Shown here piece by piece: positions 9,325 to 21,894 of a stretch of DNA of 23,034 nucleotides. Position numbers and translations under genes: made by a program. Within the stretch, counting starts at the first letter, position 1. Each line of letters starts with the position of its first letter. Under the pieces are notes generated by a model. That model ran no database searches, had not been told where the DNA came from, and worked only from the letters and a program-made list of their open reading frames with translations. The DNA comes from Oscillospiraceae bacterium (GTDB lineage: Bacteria; Bacillota_A; Clostridia; Oscillospirales; Oscillospiraceae): NCBI GenBank assembly GCA_902786615.1, contig CADADE010000031.1, positions 1 through 23,034 on the forward strand. Direction: 5' to 3'.

Positions 9325-12300
9325 CTAAATCCCTTTCCCATTGTATTTCTCGCCGTCGACATAGAGCGCGCTGTCCTGCGCCTCGATACGGTGCGCGGTT
9401 CCCTTCGTGTCTGTCCAATAAACCGTATAGTCTCCCGGCAGGGGAGCGGCGGGGCTGACATAGAGCTTCCCGCCCTTCAACTTGAGGCCCAGCAGCCCCT
9501 CGCAGACCACGCGGAAGTACCAGCCCGCAGAGCCGGTGTACCAGGTCCAGCCCGCGGCTCCCTCGCGTCCGGGCGCGGCGCATACATCCGCCGGGAGAAC
9601 AAAGGGTTCGGCCTCATAGCAGGCCGGATCGTGTGTCTCGGGCAGCAGCATGCGCAGAAGCTCGCGCCCCTCGCGCTCCCGTCCGCGCCGGAGACAGGCC
9701 AGAGCCAGCCAGATTGCCGCGTGAGTGTACTGTCCGCCGTTTTCCCGGAAGCCTGCGCCGTAGCCGCTGAGATAACCGGGGCTGTCGGACGTGGGATAGG
9801 GCGGGTCGAGAAGCTTCACAACGCCGTGTTCCCGGTCGACCAGACGGCTGAGCGCACTGTCCAGCGCAAGCTCGACCTTTTCAGGACTTGCCCAGGGGCA
9901 GAGGGCCGCCCAGCTCTGAGCGAGGGAGTCGATGCGATCCCCATCACCGAGGGCTCTGCCGTCCTTCCTCCAGGCGCGGATATACCAGCGCCCGTTGAAG
10001 GCGGCGTCGGCCGCCCGGCCGAGCTGCTCGGAGAGTAAGCGATAGTGCGCGGCGCGCCTGTCGTCCAGACTCTCCAGCAGCTCCGCAAAGCGCAGGGCGC
10101 AGCAGGAGAAAAACCAGCCCAGCCAGACGCTCTCCCCGCCCACGCGGTCAAGACCGTCGTTCCAGTCGCCGCTGCCCATGAAGGGGAGGCCGTGCGGGCC
10201 GAAGCCGCGCTCCTCGGCTTTGCGCAGGGCAAGCAGAGCATGCTCCAGGACGCAGGCCGTTTCCGCGCTTTGCTCCGGCATTTCGTAGCGGTCGCGCTCC
10301 TCCTCGCGCAGCGCGGGAGAGCGGACAAAGGGCAGCGCCACGGAGCAGACGGAGAGATCGCCGGTTGCTTCTGTATATTCGCACAGCGCCCACACCAGCC
10401 ACAGAAGATCGTCCGAGCAGCGGGTGCGCACCCCTTTGTCGCCGCCGGGGTGACGGTGCCACCAGTGCATCACGTCGCCCTCCTGGTACTGGTGACGGCA
10501 GCAGTCCAGGATCTGTGCGCGGCAGAGCGCCGGATCGACAAGCAGCAGGTTCGCGCTGTCCTGGAGCTGATCCCGGAAGCCGATGGCCCCGCCGCTCTGA
10601 TAAATACTGCTTCGCGCAAGCAGACGGCAGGCGTAGGTCTGGTAGACCGCCCAGTTGTTCATATAGTCTGCAAGCGCCGCGTCCACGCACGCCAGCCGAA
10701 AACGCCCGAGCAGATCCCGCCACCAGCGCTGCGTCTCGCGCAGCATAGCCTCCGCCTCGCCGGGGAAGAGGGCGCGGTTTACACTCTCTTCCTTCGTCCC
10801 CAGGAGCAGGAGCGTGGCGTCCTCCGCGTCCAGGCGCAGACGCAGCGCCGCGGGGCAGAAGTCCTTTTCAAAGCGCAGGGGGACGGACGCGGCGAGATAG
10901 AGCGACGTTCCCGGCAGCCAGCTCCCGGCGTCCGTGAGGCACAGCAGCCCGCTCTGCTCCCGGATCTGCAGCCCTGCCGCGTCCTCCGTGCCGAGACGGG
11001 GGGAGAGCTCCCAGCCCAGCGTGAGCCCGCCTGCGCCGCGGATGAGCAGCGCACGCAGATCAAGCCCCATGGGGATAAAGAGCGCCGTTTCGATCTGCCG
11101 CCCGGCGATTTCCTTTCGCCAGACGCTGACAGCGGGGGAGTAGGCCACACCGCAGGGGCTGACCCCGTCGGCAAAGAGACTCACGGCCTCATCGCCCACC
11201 CAGGCGTACAGCGCTTCCGCGCCCGCCGTGTCCCGAATATCCTCCGGGGGCGGCAGCAGACGCATTTCCCGTGCGTTTTTGAGCCACAGCCCCGCCGGAC
11301 CGAAGTCGGCGGCAAAGGCGGAGAGACTGCCGTTTGTGATCACATGCTGCCAGATGCGCGGCGGCATGGCGTTTTCAACGGTGTAAAAGAAACGGTCCGC
11401 ATCCCAGCCGTGCGCGGGAATACGCGCTGCGCGCTTCGGAGCGGGGAGGGCGGACGAAAGCGGCGCTGGCAGCAGCCGCGGCGCCCCAATGAAAACGGCG
11501 GCGCGGCTTTTCAGCACGTCCGCGGCCTCGGTCGGCGCACTCAGAACGCCGCCGCGCGCGCCCAGCAGCGCTTCCAGACCGAAGGCGGCAAGGCGGCGCT
11601 CAAGCTCCCGCATGCGCGGGCGCAGATATTCCCCATGCTCATTGGAAAGGTAGACCAACTCCGCTTCCAGCCCACAGCTTTTCAGCAGACAGAAGCAGCG
11701 CAGCAGGCGCTCGGACTCCGCCGCGCCCGCCTCGCAGCCAATCAGCGGCAGATCGCCGGACACGCCCCAGCGCCAGAGTGCGGATTTGGGCGCGGCGCCG
11801 CACAGACGGTTTTCCCACAGCGGCAGGACAAGCTCCATGGCCTCGCCAAGCTCGTCTCCGCTCATGCCGAGGCGCAGGGCGGCCGCCCGTGTCATGCTTC
11901 CGCCGGCACTCGCGGGGGCGGCAAGGATGCGCGCCGCAGCGTCGAAAGCCTCCCGCGCGCTCTGCCCCAGGGCGAGGGCGAAGCGAGCCTCCGTTTTTTC
12001 GCCCTTTTGCGGCGGCAGCTCGACCCGCGCAGAGACCAGCGGCGATAAAAGCGCGCCGAGACCGCCCCGCGCGTCGGCGTGAAAGACGGCGGGCAGATCG
12101 GCAGCGAGACAGAGCCAGCGCTCAGACTCCCCGTTTTTCGAAAGCCTTCGCAGCAGCAGACACCCGTCACGTACCTCTGCCCACAGCCCCAGCTGCCAGT
12201 AGGCGCGGTGACTGCGCCAGTCGCGCTCCAGGGCGAGAACGGGCGTAAAGCGCAGCGTGAGCGGGAGCGAATGCGCAAGCCCGGAAACGGAGATCATCAG

Positions 12301-15300
12301 CGCCTCCCCCAGCTCGCCTTCGGCGCTCTGCCTTCTCAGCGAGACGGACAGTGGATCGGTTTTCAGCTCCCAGCGGCAGCTCTCTTCGCCGAATTCCCAG
12401 CGATCCGAGACCCCGGCGGGCAGAAGCTCCCTTTCGCCGAGAGAAATCGAGAGACCCGGATCGCCGCCCTCGGACTGATAGACGCACAGATCCCCCAGAA
12501 AGGCGGCGCTCTCGCCGCTGTACTTCACGCGCAGACTGTAAGCCCCGTTTGAGAGCAGGCAGGCCCCGGGCTTTTCGCTGCAGACGCCGCTCTGCTCCCA
12601 GGCGCGGCGCGGACTCTTCTCCGGCCGCTCCGGCACCGGGGCGCGATCCCGCCGGATCACGGCGGCGGAGTCCGGCAGCTTCTCCTGCAAAAGAAGGGTA
12701 AACGCCGCCATCTCCGGCTCGCTCATAAAAAGCTCCCGCACAAGTCCGCCGTCCACAGCGTTAAGCGCGGCGAGAATGCTCATCCCGACATGGTGCGCCA
12801 TCCAGCAGCGTACCTGTTCCCCCTCGTTCCGGGTGCAGCGGCCCGGGGTGAAATCCAGCGCTTCGATATATCCCCAGCGGCCCGCCGCGCCGAGATCGCG
12901 CAGCCGCCGGAGATTGCGCACGGCGGCGGCGGGCTCCACCGCGAGCGCGAGAAAGCTCGCGTAGGGCGCAATGACCAGATCCTCCTCCTGTCCTCGCTTG
13001 AGCGCCAGAGCCGGACAGCCGTGGGCCTTGTAGCGATAGCTGTTCGCCGCGTCCAGGGAATAGAAGGCACTCTCGGAGATGCCCCAGGGCATGCCCGGCA
13101 GATGCCGTCTGCGCTGGACGTAGAGACAAAAGCGCGCGCTTTCATAGAGAAGGCTCGAGCGATAGAGCGGCAGAAAGAGCATCGGCATCAGATACTCGAA
13201 CATGGTGCCCGTCCAGCTTGCAAGACCGCGAAAGCCGTCCTTCTGCAGCTGCGCCCGGCTGAGCTGCCGCCAGTGCCGCAGCGGAACCTGACCGCGGGCG
13301 AGGGCAATATAGCTTGTGAGCATCGCCTCGCTTGCCATCAGATCGTACCAGCCGCCCGCGCCCCGCTCCTTTTCGGCGTCATAGCAGATATAGAACAGCT
13401 CCCGCTGCCGGTCATAGAGGGGGCCAAAATCCATCTCCTCCAGGAGCCGTCGGAACCGTGCTTCCAGGTCGGCCTTTTCCCAGCGCCGCAGGGCGGCGCA
13501 GGCGGTGACCAGACCCGCGCAGAGATTGCCGCTGTCCACGGTGGAGAGAAAGCGCGGGCGCAGCGGGCGCAGGGTGCGCGTGTCGTACCAGTTGAAAAAG
13601 TGCCCCCTGTGCCGCTCCAGCTGTTCAAGCGTCGGCAGCATATGGCTGAGATAGGAGAGGGCTTCATCTTTCGGTATCACGCCCGCCGTCCCAAGGGCCG
13701 CTGCCGAAGCGAGGGCGAGGCCGATATTTGTCGGCGAGGTGCGGTGCGCCGCGCCGACAGGCGGCTGCTGCTGAAAGTTGTCGGGCGGGAGAAAATGATC
13801 CTCCGCCCCGGAGAGATCCTTATAATAGCCCCAGCTCTCGCTGAGGGCGCGGTGCAGCAGATCGCTGTCCCGCACGGAGAGGGGCGCTTCCCGCGCCGAG
13901 GGGAGGGCCAGCGCCGCCGTCGCCGCCGGACTCAACAGCCACATGAGCCCCGCCGCCTTGCCGGGGGCCTGGGGCGCAAAGGCCATCAGCAGCACCCCCA
14001 GCATCACGCAGGGCCACATTGCCCTGACATGCTCGGCCAGAGAGCTTGTCGCCTGCACCTCGGCAAAGGTCGTCCACTGCAAAAGCCGCCTGTGGCTCAC
14101 CAGCATGCGCCAGAGCGCGGTGAGGATCGCCGTGAGGCAGATCCAGGCCTCAAAGGGCAGAAGCCAGAGACGCATGAAGCTTCGCACAATGGCCCCGCCG
14201 AGACCTGTGAGAAGCCTGGTGTGCCGCCGTATGCGGACGCGCCCGTTTTCACGCTGCAATCCGCATTCGGCAAGCGTAAGCAGCAGATCCTGCAAAAGCG
14301 TCAGGAGCGCGGCCCAGCCGACAAGCTTCAGCCCGGGACTCGGCGAGACGAGCCCCAGCAGCATGGCCGTCAATGTCAGCGGCGCGACCAGACTGCGCCG
14401 CAGGCTGTCCAGCAGGCGAAAGCGGTCCATGAAGGGCAGTTCCCGCTTGAAGATCCAGGGGGCGTTCTGCCAGTCGCCCCGCACCCAGCGGTGCATGCGC
14501 TTATAATAGGCCAGGGGCTTGGCCGGAAAGGCGTCGGAAAAGGCGGCGTCGCTCATATACGCCCCGTGCAGATACGCGCCCTCCAGCGCGTCGTGGCTGA
14601 GAATGCGCTTTTCCGGCAGCTTCTCCCCGCACTTGAGCAGCATACGCGCGTCGAGTATGCCCTTGCCCGCGAAGCCGCCGGAGCCGAAGGCGTCCATGTA
14701 GAGCTCGGTGCTGAGTCCGCCGTAGGGATCGCTGCCCCCGGCTCCGGCGAAGATCAGGGCAAAGTCTGTCGCGCCCGCGCTCTCAAGCTCCGTTTCAATG
14801 CGCGGATGGATGACCGCGTGCCCCGCCGTCGGCAGTCCGTCCGGCCCGGGCAGGGGGGCGTTCAGCGGATGCAGCGCCGCCCCGATGAGCTGCCCCAGCG
14901 AGCCGGGGAAAACGCGGGTGTCGGCGTCCAGCGAGATGATGTAGCGCGTACCACGCAGGGCGTTTTGATCGCCGACGACCGTGAGGGCGCTCCCTTGCCC
15001 GCACAGGAGCCTTGCCAACTCCGTCAGCGCGCCGCGCTTGCGCTCGTGACCGCTGTAGCTTTCTCCGTCAAACACGCGGGGGCGGAGGAAGAGATAGAAG
15101 CCGCCGCCGTATTTTTCGTTGAGCCTCTCCACCTGCAGCCTCGCCGTTTGAATCAGCGCCTCATCACCGGAGGCGTGTTCGCTTTTGGCGGCGGGCAGAT
15201 CGGCCAGCAGCCCGAAGCAGAGCTCACTGCCCTCGTGCACGCTTGCAAGGCGAAGCTCCTCCAGACGGGCGGGGTCCACGCAGCCGAGCAGCACCGACAG

Positions 15301-16338
15301 CACGCAGAGCGTCTTCCCCTCCGGCGGCACCCCGTCCGAGAGATCGAGGCGCGGCAGGGGATGGGGACGCAGAAAACGCAGCAGCAGAAAGTCCACAATA
15401 CCCTTTACCAGCGACCAGAGCGGGACGATCAGCAGCAAGGCCGCCCGTACATCGCGCAGCATGACGGACGCAAGCAGACAGCCGAAAAGCGTGAGGCCTG
15501 TGAGAGAGGCCGTATAGACCGCCGCACCCAGCTCTCCCGGCGGGGTGTACAGCAGAAACCCCACATGACGTCCCTCGGCTTTGGCCGTGTCGATCAGGCG
15601 GCGGGCGAGCGTCTGCTCGTCTATCCCCTCCGCCTCCGCCATTTCCGCGAGACGCCGCAGATAGTCCTCCCGCGTCTGCCTGTCCATGCGCGAAAAGCTC
15701 CCCGTGGGGTCCTCGGAGAGAATCTTTCCGGACACGTCCGCTCCGTCCAGCACGGACTCCATATCCATCGAGGACAGCAGGATCAGCGAGCGGAAGAGCG
15801 CTGCGAGCGTATTGCTCAGCTCCTCGGGCTCGCTCGACGCGCGCATCTTCCGGCATGCGCCGGCGACGGCCTCCAGAATCACCGCCCGCAAGGCCGCAGG
15901 GAAGAGCAGCAGCTCCCGCCGCTGCAAAGCAGTCACGCTCTGAAAGCCCCGCAGAAAGAGAGCGCAGCGCTCCTCTGTCAGTTTGCCTTGTCCGGCGGAG
16001 AGAAGCGCACGGCAGAGCTCCGTCACCAAAAGCTTCCCGCGGCTGCAGCGCTGCGGCTGGGCCTGCTTGAAGGCGCGGCGGACGGCGGGGTACTCCCGCT
16101 GAATCAGATAGTGGTTATCCAGCAGCCATTCGCAGGCCGCCGGGATGCGCGCCGCCCCGTCGTAGCGCCGCTGCAGGAGACTCTGGCAGCGCGCCGTCTC
16201 CTGGTAGCAGCGCAGGAGCGCCTGCGCCTCGCCCCGCCCGTCGCTCCTGCCGTCGGCGCGCAGGGTCTGGGCGCAGGAGACGGCGTAGTCAAAAAGCTTC
16301 TCGTCTTCGATATACGGTATCAGATTCATGCTGTCCAT
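9325..16338 (-). CDS. Cyclic beta-1,2-glucan synthase-like multidomain membrane enzyme (GT84-GH189-GH94)
   Basis: This giant protein has 2337 residues. An N-terminal helical region is followed by two membrane spans near 270-320, then a glycosyltransferase module with DAD at 471-473 and HRWVRGDWQ at 616-624 (GT84/GT2-like). Four further hydrophobic segments lie between about 650 and 810. A glucoamylase-like region (about 850-1250; PPDNFQQQP, STVDSGNLCAGL, CWMAHHVGMSI) corresponds to the cyclising GH189 module. The C-terminal GH94 phosphorylase-like module has MHWWHRHPGGDKGVRTRCSDD near 1955-1975 and GDWND at 2057-2061, D2061 being the likely catalytic acid. This order is known from NdvB/ChvB synthases, where GH94 trims chain length. 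Members I know are about 2700-2900 residues, so this one is compact. ATG 16338 was chosen over 16518 because GGAG lies 6 bases upstream and 16518 would overlap divergent ylxM. No transporter is adjacent. Confidence 0.87.
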   Translation of the reverse strand: MDSMNLIPYIEDEKLFDYAVSCAQTLRADGRSDGRGEAQALLRCYQETARCQSLLQRRYDGAARIPAACEWLLDNHYLIQREYPAVRRAFKQAQPQRCSRGKLLVTELCRALLSAGQGKLTEERCALFLRGFQSVTALQRRELLLFPAALRAVILEAVAGACRKMRASSEPEELSNTLAALFRSLILLSSMDMESVLDGADVSGKILSEDPTGSFSRMDRQTREDYLRRLAEMAEAEGIDEQTLARRLIDTAKAEGRHVGFLLYTPPGELGAAVYTASLTGLTLFGCLLASVMLRDVRAALLLIVPLWSLVKGIVDFLLLRFLRPHPLPRLDLSDGVPPEGKTLCVLSVLLGCVDPARLEELRLASVHEGSELCFGLLADLPAAKSEHASGDEALIQTARLQVERLNEKYGGGFYLFLRPRVFDGESYSGHERKRGALTELARLLCGQGSALTVVGDQNALRGTRYIISLDADTRVFPGSLGQLIGAALHPLNAPLPGPDGLPTAGHAVIHPRIETELESAGATDFALIFAGAGGSDPYGGLSTELYMDAFGSGGFAGKGILDARMLLKCGEKLPEKRILSHDALEGAYLHGAYMSDAAFSDAFPAKPLAYYKRMHRWVRGDWQNAPWIFKRELPFMDRFRLLDSLRRSLVAPLTLTAMLLGLVSPSPGLKLVGWAALLTLLQDLLLTLAECGLQRENGRVRIRRHTRLLTGLGGAIVRSFMRLWLLPFEAWICLTAILTALWRMLVSHRRLLQWTTFAEVQATSSLAEHVRAMWPCVMLGVLLMAFAPQAPGKAAGLMWLLSPAATAALALPSAREAPLSVRDSDLLHRALSESWGYYKDLSGAEDHFLPPDNFQQQPPVGAAHRTSPTNIGLALASAAALGTAGVIPKDEALSYLSHMLPTLEQLERHRGHFFNWYDTRTLRPLRPRFLSTVDSGNLCAGLVTACAALRRWEKADLEARFRRLLEEMDFGPLYDRQRELFYICYDAEKERGAGGWYDLMASEAMLTSYIALARGQVPLRHWRQLSRAQLQKDGFRGLASWTGTMFEYLMPMLFLPLYRSSLLYESARFCLYVQRRRHLPGMPWGISESAFYSLDAANSYRYKAHGCPALALKRGQEEDLVIAPYASFLALAVEPAAAVRNLRRLRDLGAAGRWGYIEALDFTPGRCTRNEGEQVRCWMAHHVGMSILAALNAVDGGLVRELFMSEPEMAAFTLLLQEKLPDSAAVIRRDRAPVPERPEKSPRRAWEQSGVCSEKPGACLLSNGAYSLRVKYSGESAAFLGDLCVYQSEGGDPGLSISLGERELLPAGVSDRWEFGEESCRWELKTDPLSVSLRRQSAEGELGEALMISVSGLAHSLPLTLRFTPVLALERDWRSHRAYWQLGLWAEVRDGCLLLRRLSKNGESERWLCLAADLPAVFHADARGGLGALLSPLVSARVELPPQKGEKTEARFALALGQSAREAFDAAARILAAPASAGGSMTRAAALRLGMSGDELGEAMELVLPLWENRLCGAAPKSALWRWGVSGDLPLIGCEAGAAESERLLRCFCLLKSCGLEAELVYLSNEHGEYLRPRMRELERRLAAFGLEALLGARGGVLSAPTEAADVLKSRAAVFIGAPRLLPAPLSSALPAPKRAARIPAHGWDADRFFYTVENAMPPRIWQHVITNGSLSAFAADFGPAGLWLKNAREMRLLPPPEDIRDTAGAEALYAWVGDEAVSLFADGVSPCGVAYSPAVSVWRKEIAGRQIETALFIPMGLDLRALLIRGAGGLTLGWELSPRLGTEDAAGLQIREQSGLLCLTDAGSWLPGTSLYLAASVPLRFEKDFCPAALRLRLDAEDATLLLLGTKEESVNRALFPGEAEAMLRETQRWWRDLLGRFRLACVDAALADYMNNWAVYQTYACRLLARSSIYQSGGAIGFRDQLQDSANLLLVDPALCRAQILDCCRHQYQEGDVMHWWHRHPGGDKGVRTRCSDDLLWLVWALCEYTEATGDLSVCSVALPFVRSPALREEERDRYEMPEQSAETACVLEHALLALRKAEERGFGPHGLPFMGSGDWNDGLDRVGGESVWLGWFFSCCALRFAELLESLDDRRAAHYRLLSEQLGRAADAAFNGRWYIRAWRKDGRALGDGDRIDSLAQSWAALCPWASPEKVELALDSALSRLVDREHGVVKLLDPPYPTSDSPGYLSGYGAGFRENGGQYTHAAIWLALACLRRGREREGRELLRMLLPETHDPACYEAEPFVLPADVCAAPGREGAAGWTWYTGSAGWYFRVVCEGLLGLKLKGGKLYVSPAAPLPGDYTVYWTDTKGTAHRIEAQDSALYVDGEKYNGKGI

Positions 16339-16430
16339 GTCTTTCTCCGATCTGCAAATGATATACGCGAGAACATTTTTTCCCATTTGGCGGGGGATAT
16401 ACATTTTTGACCGCTGACAAGAAAAAAGAC

Positions 16431-16459
16431 TTGACAGAACAGGAAGGGGCGAGTATAAT
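16431..16459 (+). promoter_or_regulatory. Consensus sigma-A promoter for ylxM-ffh
   Basis: TTGACA (16431-16436), exactly 17 bases, and TATAAT (16454-16459) match the consensus at every position. Transcription would start near 16466, about 30 bases before the GTG start of ylxM. It is the strongest promoter visible in the window. Confidence 0.93.
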
Positions 16460-16496
16460 CTGTTAAGCTTGAAGACTTGACAGGGAGGCGCTTGCC

Positions 16497-16847
16497 GTGG
16501 CGGAAAGCAGATGGACACAGAGCATGCTGCTGGATTTCTATGGCGAGCTTTTGACAGACAAGCAGAGAGAGTGCTTCGACCTGCATTACAATGAGGATCT
16601 GTCCCTGTCGGAGATCGCCGAGCAGCTCGGCATATCGCGCCAGGGCGTGTGGGACAACATCCGCCGCGCCGAAGGGGCGATGAAGGAGATCGAGGAAAAG
16701 ACCGGGCTCATCCGCCGCTTTGAAGGCACAAAGCGCGCGCTGGAGACCGTTCGGAAGCAGGCAGAGGAAATCGGAGGGCTCACGCAGGGCAGGGCGCGGG
16801 AAATCGCGCAGGCCATCGTACATGAGATCGAACAGCTTGAGGACTGA
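16497..16847 (+). CDS. ylxM: YlxM family helix-turn-helix protein (SRP-associated)
   Basis: The 116-residue protein has a sigma-70 region-4-like helix-turn-helix: SLSEIAEQLGISRQGVWDNIRRAE at about residues 36-59. The length and the position directly before ffh are those of YlxM, which in streptococci has been linked to SRP assembly and function. The start is GTG at 16497, preceded by GGGAGG with 8-base spacing. The C-terminal half is helical and charged. It lies under a perfect promoter, and three bases separate its stop from ffh, so the two are co-transcribed. Confidence 0.92.
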   Translation: MAESRWTQSMLLDFYGELLTDKQRECFDLHYNEDLSLSEIAEQLGISRQGVWDNIRRAEGAMKEIEEKTGLIRRFEGTKRALETVRKQAEEIGGLTQGRAREIAQAIVHEIEQLED

Positions 16848-18953: not shown

Positions 18954-18982
18954 AAAAACTCCCGGGAGACCGGGAGTTTTTT
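18953..18982 (+). terminator. Rho-independent terminator after khpA
   Basis: A perfect 13-bp stem (AAAAAACTCCCGG with CCGGGAGTTTTTT) closed by a GAGA tetraloop and ending in six T. It begins at the last base of the khpA stop codon, so rpsP-khpA forms a closed transcription unit separate from rimM-trmD. The symmetric A and T tracts mean it could also work on the other strand. Confidence 0.95.
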
Positions 18983-19045
18983 GCGCATAAGAGTTTACAA
19001 TTTGATAATAGGAATGCTCCTGATTATGAAATATCTTTCTGGTAC

Positions 19046-19242: not shown

Positions 19243-19734
19243 ATGGAAAAAAAAGGACTGATCGAAGCCGGGCGCATCGTCAATACCCACGGCGTACAGG
19301 GCGAGGTCAAAATCGAGGTCTGGCTGGATTCGCCCCGCTTTTTTAACAGCTTCAAGCGCCTGGTGCTGGATTCCGGCGAGGAAATCAAGGTTCTCTCTTC
19401 CAGAGCGCACAAGGGCTTTGCGATCACAAAGCTGGAGGGGGCGGCGGATGTGAACGCCGCCATGCGCCTCAAGGGGAAAACCGTCTTTGTCCGGCGCGAG
19501 GACGCGGCGCTGCCGCGCGGCGCCTTCTTCCTTCAGGACATCATCGGCGCAAAAGTCGTAGACGAGGCCGGAAACGAGATCGGCACCCTCGCTGAAGTCA
19601 TGGAGACGCCCGCCTCCAACGTCTATGTCGTTCGCGGCGAGACGGAGCATCTCATTCCCGCCGTCCCGGAATTTGTCAAAAAGACCGACGCGGACGCGGG
19701 CGTCGTCACGGTGCACTTGATTGAGGGTATGTGA
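19243..19734 (+). CDS. rimM: Ribosome maturation factor RimM
   Basis: The 163-residue protein has the two RimM domains. The N-terminal RimM barrel begins IEAGRIVNTHGVQGEVKIEVWLD, and the C-terminal PRC-barrel starts near FFLQDIIGAKVVDEAGNEIG and ends at HLIPAVPEFVKK. It binds S19 and helps mature the 30S head. The start follows GGGAGGAAG by a few bases and is under its own promoter. It ends one base before the trmD ATG (TGAG ATG), a standard pairing. Slightly compact but complete. Confidence 0.95.
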   Translation: MEKKGLIEAGRIVNTHGVQGEVKIEVWLDSPRFFNSFKRLVLDSGEEIKVLSSRAHKGFAITKLEGAADVNAAMRLKGKTVFVRREDAALPRGAFFLQDIIGAKVVDEAGNEIGTLAEVMETPASNVYVVRGETEHLIPAVPEFVKKTDADAGVVTVHLIEGM

Positions 19735-19735
19735 G

Positions 19736-21028
19736 ATGAAAATAGACATTCTGACCCTCTTCCCGGATACCGTACATGCCGTCCTGCATGAGAGCATCAT
19801 CGGCCGCGCCGCCGCCAAAGGCATTGTGGAGATCAACTGCGTGCAGATCCGGGACTTTACCGAGAATAAGCAGAAGCAGGTGGACGACTATCCCTACGGC
19901 GGGGGCTTCGGCTGCGTGATGATGGCCCAGCCGCTCAAGTCCTGCCTCAATCATGTGATGCAGGGGGCGGAGGGCCTGCGCTCCCGCGTGATTTACATGT
20001 CTCCCCAGGGACAGCCCTACACCCAGGAGACGGCAAAGCGCCTCAACCGGGATTACGACCATCTGGTGCTGGTCTGCGGCCATTATGAGGGCGTGGACGA
20101 GCGCTTTATCGAAGCCTGCGTGGATGAGGAAATCTCTCTCGGCGACTTCGTGCTCACCGGCGGCGAGATCGCGGCCATGGCCGTGGCCGACTCCGTGTGC
20201 CGCCTCGTCCCCGGCGTGCTGGCGGACGAGCAGTGCTATACCGGCGAGAGCCATTGGGACGGGCTGCTGGAATATCCACAGTACACCCGCCCGGAGAACT
20301 GGGAAGGCCGCGCCGTGCCGGAGATCCTCTTAAACGGCGACCATGCCCGCATCGAGCATTGGCGGCGCAAGCAGCAGCTTGCGCGCACGCGCTTGAAGCG
20401 CCCGGACATGTTCGCGGCCTTTGAGGCACAGTCGGACGAGGACCGGAAGCTCCTGCAGGAGCTGGAAAAGGAGCAGGGGCGCAAACAGCTCACGGAGCCG
20501 GTACAGTACCGCGCCGCGGCGGCGGAGGACATCCCCCGCATCCTTGAGATCGTGCAGGACGCGCGTGAGAGCCTCAGACGCTACCATGTGGATCAGTGGC
20601 AGGGACCGTACCCCGGAGCCGAAAGCTTTGAAGAGGATATCCGCCTGGGGCAGTGCTTTGTGCTCACCCACGGGGGGGACGTGCTTGCCTTCTTCACGCT
20701 CAGCACCATCCCGGAGCCAAGCTACGATGAGATCACCGACGGTAAGTGGTCTGCGGAGCTGCCATACTGCGTGCTGCATCGCTCGGCGGTAGCAAAGGAG
20801 TACCGCGGCAGCGGCGCGGCCATGGCGCTGATGCGCTGCGTGGAGGAGCAGGCAAGAGCCTACGGCCTCAAATGTATAAGAGTGGACACGCACAGAAAGA
20901 ATAAGCCAATGCAGACGCTGCTGCGGGAGAGCGGCTACCGCTATCGGGGCAATGTCCTGGTCAATGCCGAGCCGGGCCACGATCCGCGCCGCCAGGCGTT
21001 TGAAAAAATACTGAAGGACAGGAAATGA
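19736..21028 (+). CDS. trmD: TrmD tRNA (guanine-37-N1) methyltransferase fused to a C-terminal GNAT acetyltransferase domain
   Basis: The 430-residue protein is a fusion. Residues 1 to about 245 are a full TrmD, the SAM-dependent SPOUT enzyme that makes m1G37 in tRNAs: DDYPYGGGFG near 50-59, SPQGQPYTQ near 89, the trefoil-knot segments VLVCGHYEGVDERF (111-124) and DEEISLGDFVLTGGE (130-144), and DGLLEYPQYTRP with D175 as the likely general base. After a charged linker (about 232-255), residues 256-430 form a GNAT N-acetyltransferase: YRAAAAEDIPRILEIV, DQWQGPYP, and the acetyl-CoA loop VAKEYRGSGAA at 352-362. Lone TrmD is usually about 240-250 residues. No stop, frameshift or internal Shine-Dalgarno is visible at the junction. 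The ATG at 19736 was chosen over 19721, which overlaps rimM. The acetylation substrate is unknown. Confidence 0.92.
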   Translation: MKIDILTLFPDTVHAVLHESIIGRAAAKGIVEINCVQIRDFTENKQKQVDDYPYGGGFGCVMMAQPLKSCLNHVMQGAEGLRSRVIYMSPQGQPYTQETAKRLNRDYDHLVLVCGHYEGVDERFIEACVDEEISLGDFVLTGGEIAAMAVADSVCRLVPGVLADEQCYTGESHWDGLLEYPQYTRPENWEGRAVPEILLNGDHARIEHWRRKQQLARTRLKRPDMFAAFEAQSDEDRKLLQELEKEQGRKQLTEPVQYRAAAAEDIPRILEIVQDARESLRRYHVDQWQGPYPGAESFEEDIRLGQCFVLTHGGDVLAFFTLSTIPEPSYDEITDGKWSAELPYCVLHRSAVAKEYRGSGAAMALMRCVEEQARAYGLKCIRVDTHRKNKPMQTLLRESGYRYRGNVLVNAEPGHDPRRQAFEKILKDRK

Positions 21029-21894
21029 ACTTAACCGATTACAACGAGATCCGGGCACTGCTTGCCCGGCATAAATTTCAGTTCTCCAAATCCAAGGGCC
21101 AGAACTTTCTGACCGCCGCCTGGGTGCCGGAGGATATTGCCGCCTCCGCCGGACTCGACGAGCATACCGGCGTTTTGGAGGTCGGCCCCGGCGTCGGCTG
21201 CCTGACGAAGGAACTGAGCCTGCGCGCGGGAAAGGTTCTGAGCGTGGAGCTGGACCGGGATCTCAAGCCCGTGCTGGCGGAAACGCTGGCGGAGTGCAAG
21301 AATGTGGAACTTCTGTTTGCCGACGCCTTAAAGCAGGATCTGGCCGGCCTCGTGGAGGAACATATGCCCGGCATGCGGCATGTGGTCTGCGCCAATATCC
21401 CGTATAATGTGACAAGCCCGCTGCTCACCGCGTTTCTGGAGGCGGGCTGCTTTGAGACCGTCACCGTCATGATCCAGCGCGAGGTGGCAAAACGCATCTG
21501 CGCAGACCCCGGCACGGCGGATTACGGCGCTTTCGGCATCTTTGTGCAGTGGCATTGCGTGCCCGAGCTCCTGTTCGACGTGCCGCCCTCCTGCTTCGTG
21601 CCGCGGCCGAAGGTCACAAGCTCGGTCGTCCGCCTGACAAGGCGCGCAGTGCCGCCTGCAATGGTCCTGGACGAGAAGCTCTTTTTCCGCGTGGTGCGCG
21701 CGGCCTTCAACCAGCGCCGCAAGACCCTGGTCAACGCCCTGAGCGCCCAGCTTCCGGGGCTTGACAAGGGGCTGCTCGAAGCGGTGCTGACCGAATGCGG
21801 TCTCGATCCCCGCGTTCGCGGCGAGGTGCTGGACATCAGCGCTTTTGCCAGGATAGCCGACGCAATTTTTCGGGCACAAAACACGGATTTCTGA
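21025..21894 (+). CDS. rsmA: 16S rRNA (adenine(1518)-N(6)/adenine(1519)-N(6))-dimethyltransferase
   Basis: The 289-residue KsgA/RsmA enzyme dimethylates two adjacent adenines in the 3' terminal hairpin of 16S rRNA late in 30S assembly. It has KGQNFL at 24-29, the SAM loop LEVGPGVGCLTKEL at 51-64, acidic SVELD near 73-77, and the catalytic NIPY at 124-127. The C-terminal RNA-binding domain contains FNQRRKTLVNAL. Its ATG overlaps the trmD-GNAT stop as ATGA, so translation is coupled. Placement here, rather than rplS after trmD, is a lineage variation on the common order. No terminator is evident after it before the ppdK start region. Confidence 0.95.
   Translation: MNLTDYNEIRALLARHKFQFSKSKGQNFLTAAWVPEDIAASAGLDEHTGVLEVGPGVGCLTKELSLRAGKVLSVELDRDLKPVLAETLAECKNVELLFADALKQDLAGLVEEHMPGMRHVVCANIPYNVTSPLLTAFLEAGCFETVTVMIQREVAKRICADPGTADYGAFGIFVQWHCVPELLFDVPPSCFVPRPKVTSSVVRLTRRAVPPAMVLDEKLFFRVVRAAFNQRRKTLVNALSAQLPGLDKGLLEAVLTECGLDPRVRGEVLDISAFARIADAIFRAQNTDF

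Follow-up and report, generated by a model that had tools for sequence, protein, structure and literature searches.

A single open frame on the forward strand of the window, which is the whole 23,034-nucleotide stretch of DNA that was analyzed, joins the tRNA G37 methyltransferase TrmD to a GNAT acetyltransferase domain, and this raised the questions of whether the fusion is real and what the second domain contributes. TrmD was described as essential (PMC5217690) and universal in bacteria (PMC11187310), where here and below the statements taken from the literature refer to excerpts of the cited papers.

The trmD–GNAT gene (19736..21028, + strand) comprised 430 codons and a stop codon, and no internal stop codon was found in its translation; TIGR00088, NF000648, and PF00583 all matched above their cut-offs. 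The TrmD part (residues 1–238; 19736..20449, + strand) covered the whole TIGR00088 profile (positions 1–233 of 233) with 301.7 bits against a cut-off of 195, scored 306.6 bits for NF000648 (cut-off of 220), and matched TrmD chains in the PDB, the best being 3ky7 (1.8e-70). A charged linker (about residues 239–255; 20450..20500, + strand) lacking in-frame start codons and of near-constant length in relatives leads to the GNAT domain (about residues 256–425; 20501..21010, + strand), in which residues 278–401 matched the GNAT superfamily profile PF00583 with 44.9 bits (cut-off of 20.7). The acetyl-CoA loop motif of GNATs is (Q/R)xxGx(G/A), and the RGSGAA loop claimed for this domain by the original prediction was found at residues 357–362 of the fusion protein, with R357 and G358 conserved in 90% and 94% of 80 fused rows, respectively. 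The protein belongs to the wider kind of TrmD fused to a second enzyme, with a complete TrmD leading in frame into a second domain that is likewise complete.

The start codon of the fusion gene (ATG at 19736) directly follows the stop codon of rimM (19243..19734, + strand; PF01782 and PF24986 above cut-off), and its TGA overlaps the ATG of rsmA at 21025 as ATGA (rsmA, 21025..21894, + strand; PF00398, 181.2 bits). Between a KH-domain gene and rimM, a GC-rich hairpin followed by a T run (18955–18985, + strand) looked terminator-like by eye, and thus rimM–trmD–GNAT–rsmA may be a transcription unit of its own.

Scanning genomes with the full protein retrieved 56 loci from metagenome-assembled genomes labelled Oscillospiraceae, Ruminococcaceae, Clostridiales, and similar, many of them from animal guts. 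Essentially full-length matches were obtained for 55 of the 56 loci, while L056 matched only over residues 1–229; L048 and L054, both among the 55, had a frame break that left the two parts outside a common frame. How far the fusion extends, a question raised by the original prediction, was mapped in 150 evenly drawn genomes from the family of the closest genome, of which 135 had a trmD match. The match continued into the GNAT domain in 27 of the 135, with a single trmD match (E ≤ 1e-40) in each; among these 27, G408 was cut at the contig start and the GNAT of G335 was eroded. The fusion was rarer in an order-level survey of 295 genomes (278 with some match), where five full-length rows were present among the matches listed, full-length matches being ranked first. 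When the GNAT half was searched against a protein database, 1504 of 2432 candidates matched at E ≤ 1e-3, and the best 120 listed all carried PF01746 (TrmD). Only proteins of 0.55–1.75 times the query length were admitted, which excluded free-standing GNATs by design, so this result reflects the number of fusions and not that this GNAT type is always fused; free-standing GNATs of the window type do exist.

The distance from TrmD residue 240 to a conserved GNAT arginine was exactly 18 residues in 64 of the 80 fused rows. Because many independent genomes share this open frame and the linker length is near-constant, an artefact was dismissed: as the original prediction had held, TrmD–GNAT is a true in-frame fusion, with one open frame, domain profiles above cut-off, and a presence in many genomes, and it is neither an annotation nor an assembly artefact. 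The fusion is old and widespread, occurring in many uncultured animal-gut bacteria.

Neighboring gene orders were compared among the relatives. At three loci (L122–L124), the order was trmD, a type II pantothenate kinase-like gene (PanK; Fumble, PF03630), a separate GNAT gene, and rsmA, and at L175 it was trmD, PanK, and rsmA with no GNAT, so either half exists without its partner. At L130, L138, and L154, the order was trmD–GNAT, PanK, and rsmA, and at L134, trmD–GNAT was followed by a piece of PanK; set beside L122–L124, the L130, L138, and L154 orders place the window-type GNAT in this operon both fused and free. The original prediction had named separate genes in relatives and a broken frame as signs against a fusion; the former were found, in the same operon, at L122–L124, whereas the frame in the window is open and is shared by many genomes. 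The PanK-like gene also lies between trmD or trmD–GNAT and rsmA at L070, L072, and L074; this arrangement puts a CoA-synthesis gene beside a presumed acetyl-CoA user.

For the TrmD tree, 194 TrmD loci were reduced to 149 rows by excluding 32 one-genome duplicates, four cut or frame-broken loci (L048, L054, L108, and L188), and nine close relatives (L002, L004, L012, L013, L037, L043, L050, L103, and L106); from the 80 fused rows of the window type, 25 were hand-picked for spread and entered into a second TrmD tree. Most window-type fusions fell into one part of the TrmD trees, in which many forks were weak, and L067, L051, and L117 stood apart. One starred branch of the GNAT tree held fused, free, and operonic rows together (10, 9, and 3, respectively). 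Operonic GNAT forms were placed among fused ones in both the TrmD and GNAT trees, and the separate GNAT genes of L122–L124 may be secondary. The TrmD of the L207 type lay inside the larger fused clade on a long branch, and its GNAT may represent either a separate acquisition or a replacement of the window-type GNAT, that is, a partner swap within the clade. The TrmD of L067 (G293) was placed among TrmDs that are mostly unfused, while the GNAT of this locus was 54% identical to that of the window; a domain swap or transfer is possible, as is a long-branch effect.

The GNAT domain modelled alone, using an alignment of 77 of the 93 available GNAT sequences, yielded a GNAT fold with a pLDDT of 96.1. 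The best fold match was 2pc1 (E of 3.1e-14, TM of 0.86/0.91, 1.4 Å, 30% identity), followed by SbzI, 2oh1, 3h4q, and 2fia, and a sequence search against the PDB gave 2pc1 (1.1e-17) and 3h4q (1.8e-17). The window GNAT retained all 38 columns that were conserved at ≥85% across the 80 fused rows. For 12 chosen near-invariant residues (Q287, W288, W338, H348, R349, G358, R382, D384, T385, H386, N389, and R419), the full set was kept in 66 of the 80 fused GNATs, one residue was missing in 10, and two to five were missing in 4; among the free or operonic relatives, 10 of 13 kept all 12 and the remaining three kept 10, 10, and 11. In 18 fused pairs, some of which share rows, dN/dS (NG86) was 0.06–0.42 for the GNAT half and 0.03–0.19 for the TrmD half, being higher in the GNAT half in 15 pairs. 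These values indicate that the GNAT half is under purifying selection, and its sequence and predicted fold suggest that the domain is a functional enzyme from a group that is structurally known and, by the titles of its PDB entries, uncharacterized.

Identity with RimI was considered and rejected, as TIGR01575 scored 16.9 bits against a cut-off of 86.4. A replacement of RimI was rejected as well: a separate RimI above cut-off was found in 33 of 34 genomes with fused, degenerate, or operonic forms, and the 34th (G398) held RimI pieces below cut-off at contig edges. A nucleic-acid-binding surface was dropped as evidence either way since its basic signal came from a stretch that included the linker, the median pI in that first comparison being 8.4 for fused GNATs against 5.9. 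Over the same columns, the median charge was −0.5 for A-type fused GNATs (70 rows), −6.5 for B-type fused GNATs (10 rows), and −4.8 for free GNATs; the difference between A-type and free or operonic GNATs had a p-value of 3e-4, uncorrected for kinship.

Eroded forms of the domain were also observed. At L070, L072, and L074, an extension of 156 residues was kept in which the HR, RGxG loop, and DTHxxN motifs were lost and only 3–4 of the 12 residues were left. Its model had a GNAT-like fold (pLDDT of 93.2), and the best listed fold matches were GNAT acyltransferases with SbzI first (TM of 0.62), although the underlying alignment contained intact GNATs in 13 of 16 rows and may be biased towards the GNAT fold. 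The dN/dS of this extension was 0.17–0.25, with dS of up to 2. Further reduced forms kept 3 (L161), 7 (L140), 9 (L118 and L120), and 10 (L116) of the 12 residues. The domain was therefore retained without its catalytic motifs in more than one lineage.

Fusions to any partner were searched by open-frame length, and partner types were determined by Pfam on one or two members per type, the rest being assigned by BLAST to those. In a class-wide draw, trmD was found in 139 of 148 genomes, and all 16 with a frame of ≥300 amino acids were examined; a C-terminal domain was present in 14, namely a GNAT or GNAT-derived domain in 4 (G001, G018, G642, and G023, of which G001 and G018 were taken from earlier loci), a class-V aminotransferase in 4, a tyrosine phosphatase in 2, and a domain of unknown type in 4. 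With no extra domain in 125 of the 139 trmD-bearing genomes, as screened by frame length, TrmD is usually encoded alone, in agreement with the original prediction. In an order-wide draw, trmD was found in 135 of 147 genomes, and a C-terminal domain was present in 13 of the 22 with a frame of ≥340 amino acids, all of which were examined: GNAT or GNAT-derived in 7, aldose epimerase in 4, phosphomannomutase in 1, and unknown in 1. The two draws overlap, with at least G001, G018, and G023 in common. The family draw contained 27 window-type, 2 degenerate, 3 M29, and 2 weakly Acetyltransf_3-like extensions (at least 34 of 135), where the Acetyltransf_3 match of the L168 extension, at 21.8 bits, was below the cut-off of 25.4. 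In a further order, that of G642, a C-terminal fusion occurred in G642 alone among 96 trmD-bearing genomes, all four frames of ≥340 amino acids having been examined. The C-terminus of TrmD is a recurrent and permissive fusion site in these bacteria.

The partners were diverse. An M29 aminopeptidase-like domain was joined to TrmD at L171 (1217–3205, + strand; PF02073, 523 bits), L172 (155–2137, + strand), and L174 (− strand, 654 amino acids), while at L069, L071, and L176–L179, the M29 gene was separate, next to trmD, and overlapping. A class-V aminotransferase, probably a cysteine desulfurase, was present at L056 (4323–6260), L219, L220, L222, and L223, as typed by Pfam on one or two members and by BLAST. 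A tyrosine phosphatase was found at L225 (1546–3240, − strand; PF13350, 176.4 bits) and L226, an aldose epimerase (PF01263) at L234, L236, L237, and L243, and a phosphomannomutase (PF02878–PF02880) at L235. L225 also carried an Ala/Pro-rich insert inside TrmD, and a shorter one was seen in L226. Extensions of about 120–290 residues followed TrmD at L221, L224, L228, L229, and L242, and those of L221, L228, and L242 matched no partner family above cut-off in Pfam. Two database proteins, P0162 (548 amino acids) and P0164 (591 amino acids), held RimM, TrmD, and GNAT domains in one chain, which may be triple fusions or frames running on.

GNATs were joined to TrmD more than once, with at least three types besides that of the window. 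PF13673 matched the extensions of L227 (66.1 bits) and L207 (41.1 bits), and L230, L239, and L241 shared one GNAT type that matched PF00583 (34.8 bits for L230 and 47.1 bits for L241). When the extensions were compared by BLAST, no match was found between the window GNAT and these further types (E of 7.4 for L207, the others being unlisted at E ≤ 10); a B-type GNAT, which is related to that of the window, matched L239 at E of 0.003 over 55 residues, and the GNATs of L207 and L227 were weakly alike (E of 2e-7). In database searches under the same length limit of 0.55–1.75 times, TrmD was present on all 4 matches of the L227 GNAT and on 116 of the best 120 of 325 matches of the L207 GNAT; some L207-type clusters contained thousands of member sequences, and the L230 type was found in 3 genomes. 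GNATs accounted for 4 of 11 partner types, and for 3 of 10 when the lineage of the window was set aside, counting three neighboring unknown types as one and omitting the Acetyltransf_3-like type. The GNAT share of genes was estimated at 0.55–0.8% from 170 PF00583 and 74 PF13302 matches in 14 genomes (30.8 Mb, assuming one gene per kb), and the chance of 3 GNATs among 10 partners was 2e-5 to 6e-5 at this share and 9e-4 at a share of 2%; these probabilities are rough, as the number of events was judged by eye from trees with weak resolution and L207 may be a partner swap. GNATs seem to be fusion-prone in general, and among about 150 rows listed, about 30 GNATs, counted by eye, were in frames of ≥340 amino acids.

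The architecture was compared with known systems. A fusion of TrmD to a second enzyme has already been published as TrmD–Tm1570 (PF01746–PF09936) of Calditerrivibrio nitroreducens, for which 66 proteins were reported by Pfam together with a series of gene arrangements (separate, adjacent, overlapping, and fused; PMC11187310). TrmD–GNAT resembles it in carrying a second enzyme domain at the TrmD C-terminus and in the same separate-to-fused series, and a TrmD chain similar in length to the window protein is present in the PDB (8b1n, 436 amino acids). TrmD–Tm1570 differs in that its second domain is a SPOUT methyltransferase, and PF09936 did not match the window protein at E ≤ 1e-3. The 2pc1/3h4q/2fia-type GNATs are like the window GNAT in fold and sequence (30% identity for 2pc1) and have no function stated in their entry titles; unlike the window protein, these chains are single-domain and none is joined to TrmD. 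SbzI (8zt3 and 8zt4), the second-best fold match and the best with a tested function, acylates an amino group; its identity to the window GNAT is 21–23%, and its acyl donor is a carrier protein (PMC6331615). RimI (TIGR01575) shares the GNAT fold and is translation-related, but the window domain is far below its cut-off and RimI is a separate gene here. GNAT-fold enzymes that use aminoacyl-tRNA are known, but with two GNAT domains (PMC12945691). No report of a TrmD–GNAT fusion was found among the papers listed in searches of the open-licence PMC literature, judged largely by titles and the starts of abstracts, nor in the Fusobacterium TrmD literature, and the excerpts of PMC5217690, PMC9508554, and PMC1829167 do not mention it. 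The TrmD–GNAT architecture is already visible in precomputed Pfam domains.

From the open frame, its spread, its conservation, its operon neighbors, and the predicted fold, we infer a long-kept fusion of TrmD and a working 2pc1-like GNAT that act as two independent enzymes on one chain, the GNAT having a substrate common to its free relatives; we assign this reading a probability of about 0.55. A GNAT gene would have adjoined trmD in a rimM–trmD–rsmA operon before the two frames were joined. The TrmD half would methylate tRNA G37 as usual, while the GNAT half would move an acetyl group from acetyl-CoA to the amine of a soluble substrate, either a small molecule or a protein, which would be the same as that of the free-standing relatives and need not be tRNA. 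The main effect of the tether would be to keep the two enzymes, otherwise independent, at equal and coupled levels on a TrmD dimer. Two independent enzymes are favored because the retained residues are the same in fused and free GNATs, the halves occur apart, and metabolic partners are equally taken. Support is also given by the spread of the fusion with a single trmD copy, the retention of the 12 residues, the purifying selection, the 2pc1 fold match, the M29 gene that is fused at three loci and a separate, overlapping neighbor elsewhere, and the finding that the TrmD domain alone retains 86% of the activity of TrmD–Tm1570 (PMC11187310). Against it, the repeated joining of GNATs above the gene-count expectation hints at a functional reason, the retention of GNATs without motifs at L070, L072, L074, and L161 suggests that a role in structure or binding may also matter, and the operonic GNATs placed among fused ones in the trees count against the joining route.

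The original prediction had pointed the tethered GNAT towards tRNA, TrmD itself, or a ribosomal protein, and this found no support, since RimI is separate, fused and free GNATs have like residues, and metabolic enzymes are partners too; one result, the repeated fusion to different GNATs, still favors a link to such a target. That the GNAT acts on the translation machinery (the tRNAs of TrmD, TrmD itself, or a ribosomal or other translation protein), so that one protein sets methyl and acetyl marks, is somewhat unlikely. The gain of at least three further GNAT types by TrmD, each from more than one source, the rimM and rsmA neighbors, and the less acidic A-type fused GNATs are in its favor, but the B-type shows no such shift relative to free GNATs, 33 of 34 genomes have a separate RimI, TrmD is also fused to non-translation enzymes, and GNATs are often in long frames anyway. 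Its convergent form, in which lineages independently tethered different acetyltransferases because acetylation at the workplace of TrmD is useful, is unlikely; if true, it would imply an undescribed acetyl mark coupled to m1G37, on the tRNA anticodon arm, TrmD, or the ribosome.

We consider it slightly less probable again that the GNAT is mainly a binding or structural module, either an acetyl-CoA sensor tuning TrmD or a dimer stabilizer, with dispensable catalysis. The degenerate extensions of L070, L072, and L074, predicted to fold and constrained in dN/dS, the low residue counts of L161 and L140, and the pantothenate kinase-like gene for CoA synthesis next to the fusion in several relatives would fit such a role. 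However, the degenerate forms have also lost the CoA-binding loop that a CoA sensor needs, their model may owe its GNAT fold to the intact rows of the alignment, and at least 11 of the 12 residues are present in 76 of the 80 fused rows. Very improbable is a lack of any functional fusion, through a sequencing or assembly error or separate synthesis of the GNAT from an internal start. An in-frame start codon near the linker is preceded by an SD-like stretch in 15 of the 80 fused rows (some start codon in 60 of 80), codon 225 of the window is an ATG that may act as an internal start, and the frame is broken at L048 and L054; however, no in-frame ATG, GTG, or TTG lies between codons 225 and 273 of the window, which restricts the start of a separate GNAT to the end of TrmD or to the GNAT itself, and the open frames and linker length in many genomes argue for one product.

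The TrmD C-terminus, a repeatedly used fusion site to which acetyltransferases were joined more than once, offers a natural experiment with intact, eroded, unfused, and unrelated partners of one tether, through which a connection of tRNA methylation to acetylation can be tested directly. When such proteins are named after their first domain, the second enzyme goes unnoticed, as the three source names shown among the best 120 listed matches mention only TrmD.

Elsewhere in the window, an open reading frame of 2397 amino acids (9325–16518, − strand) contained GH94 (PF17167, 246 bits) and glucoamylase-like (PF10091) domains. A frame of 1206 amino acids on the opposite strand (12790–16410) had no Pfam match at E ≤ 1e-5 and is probably open by composition only.
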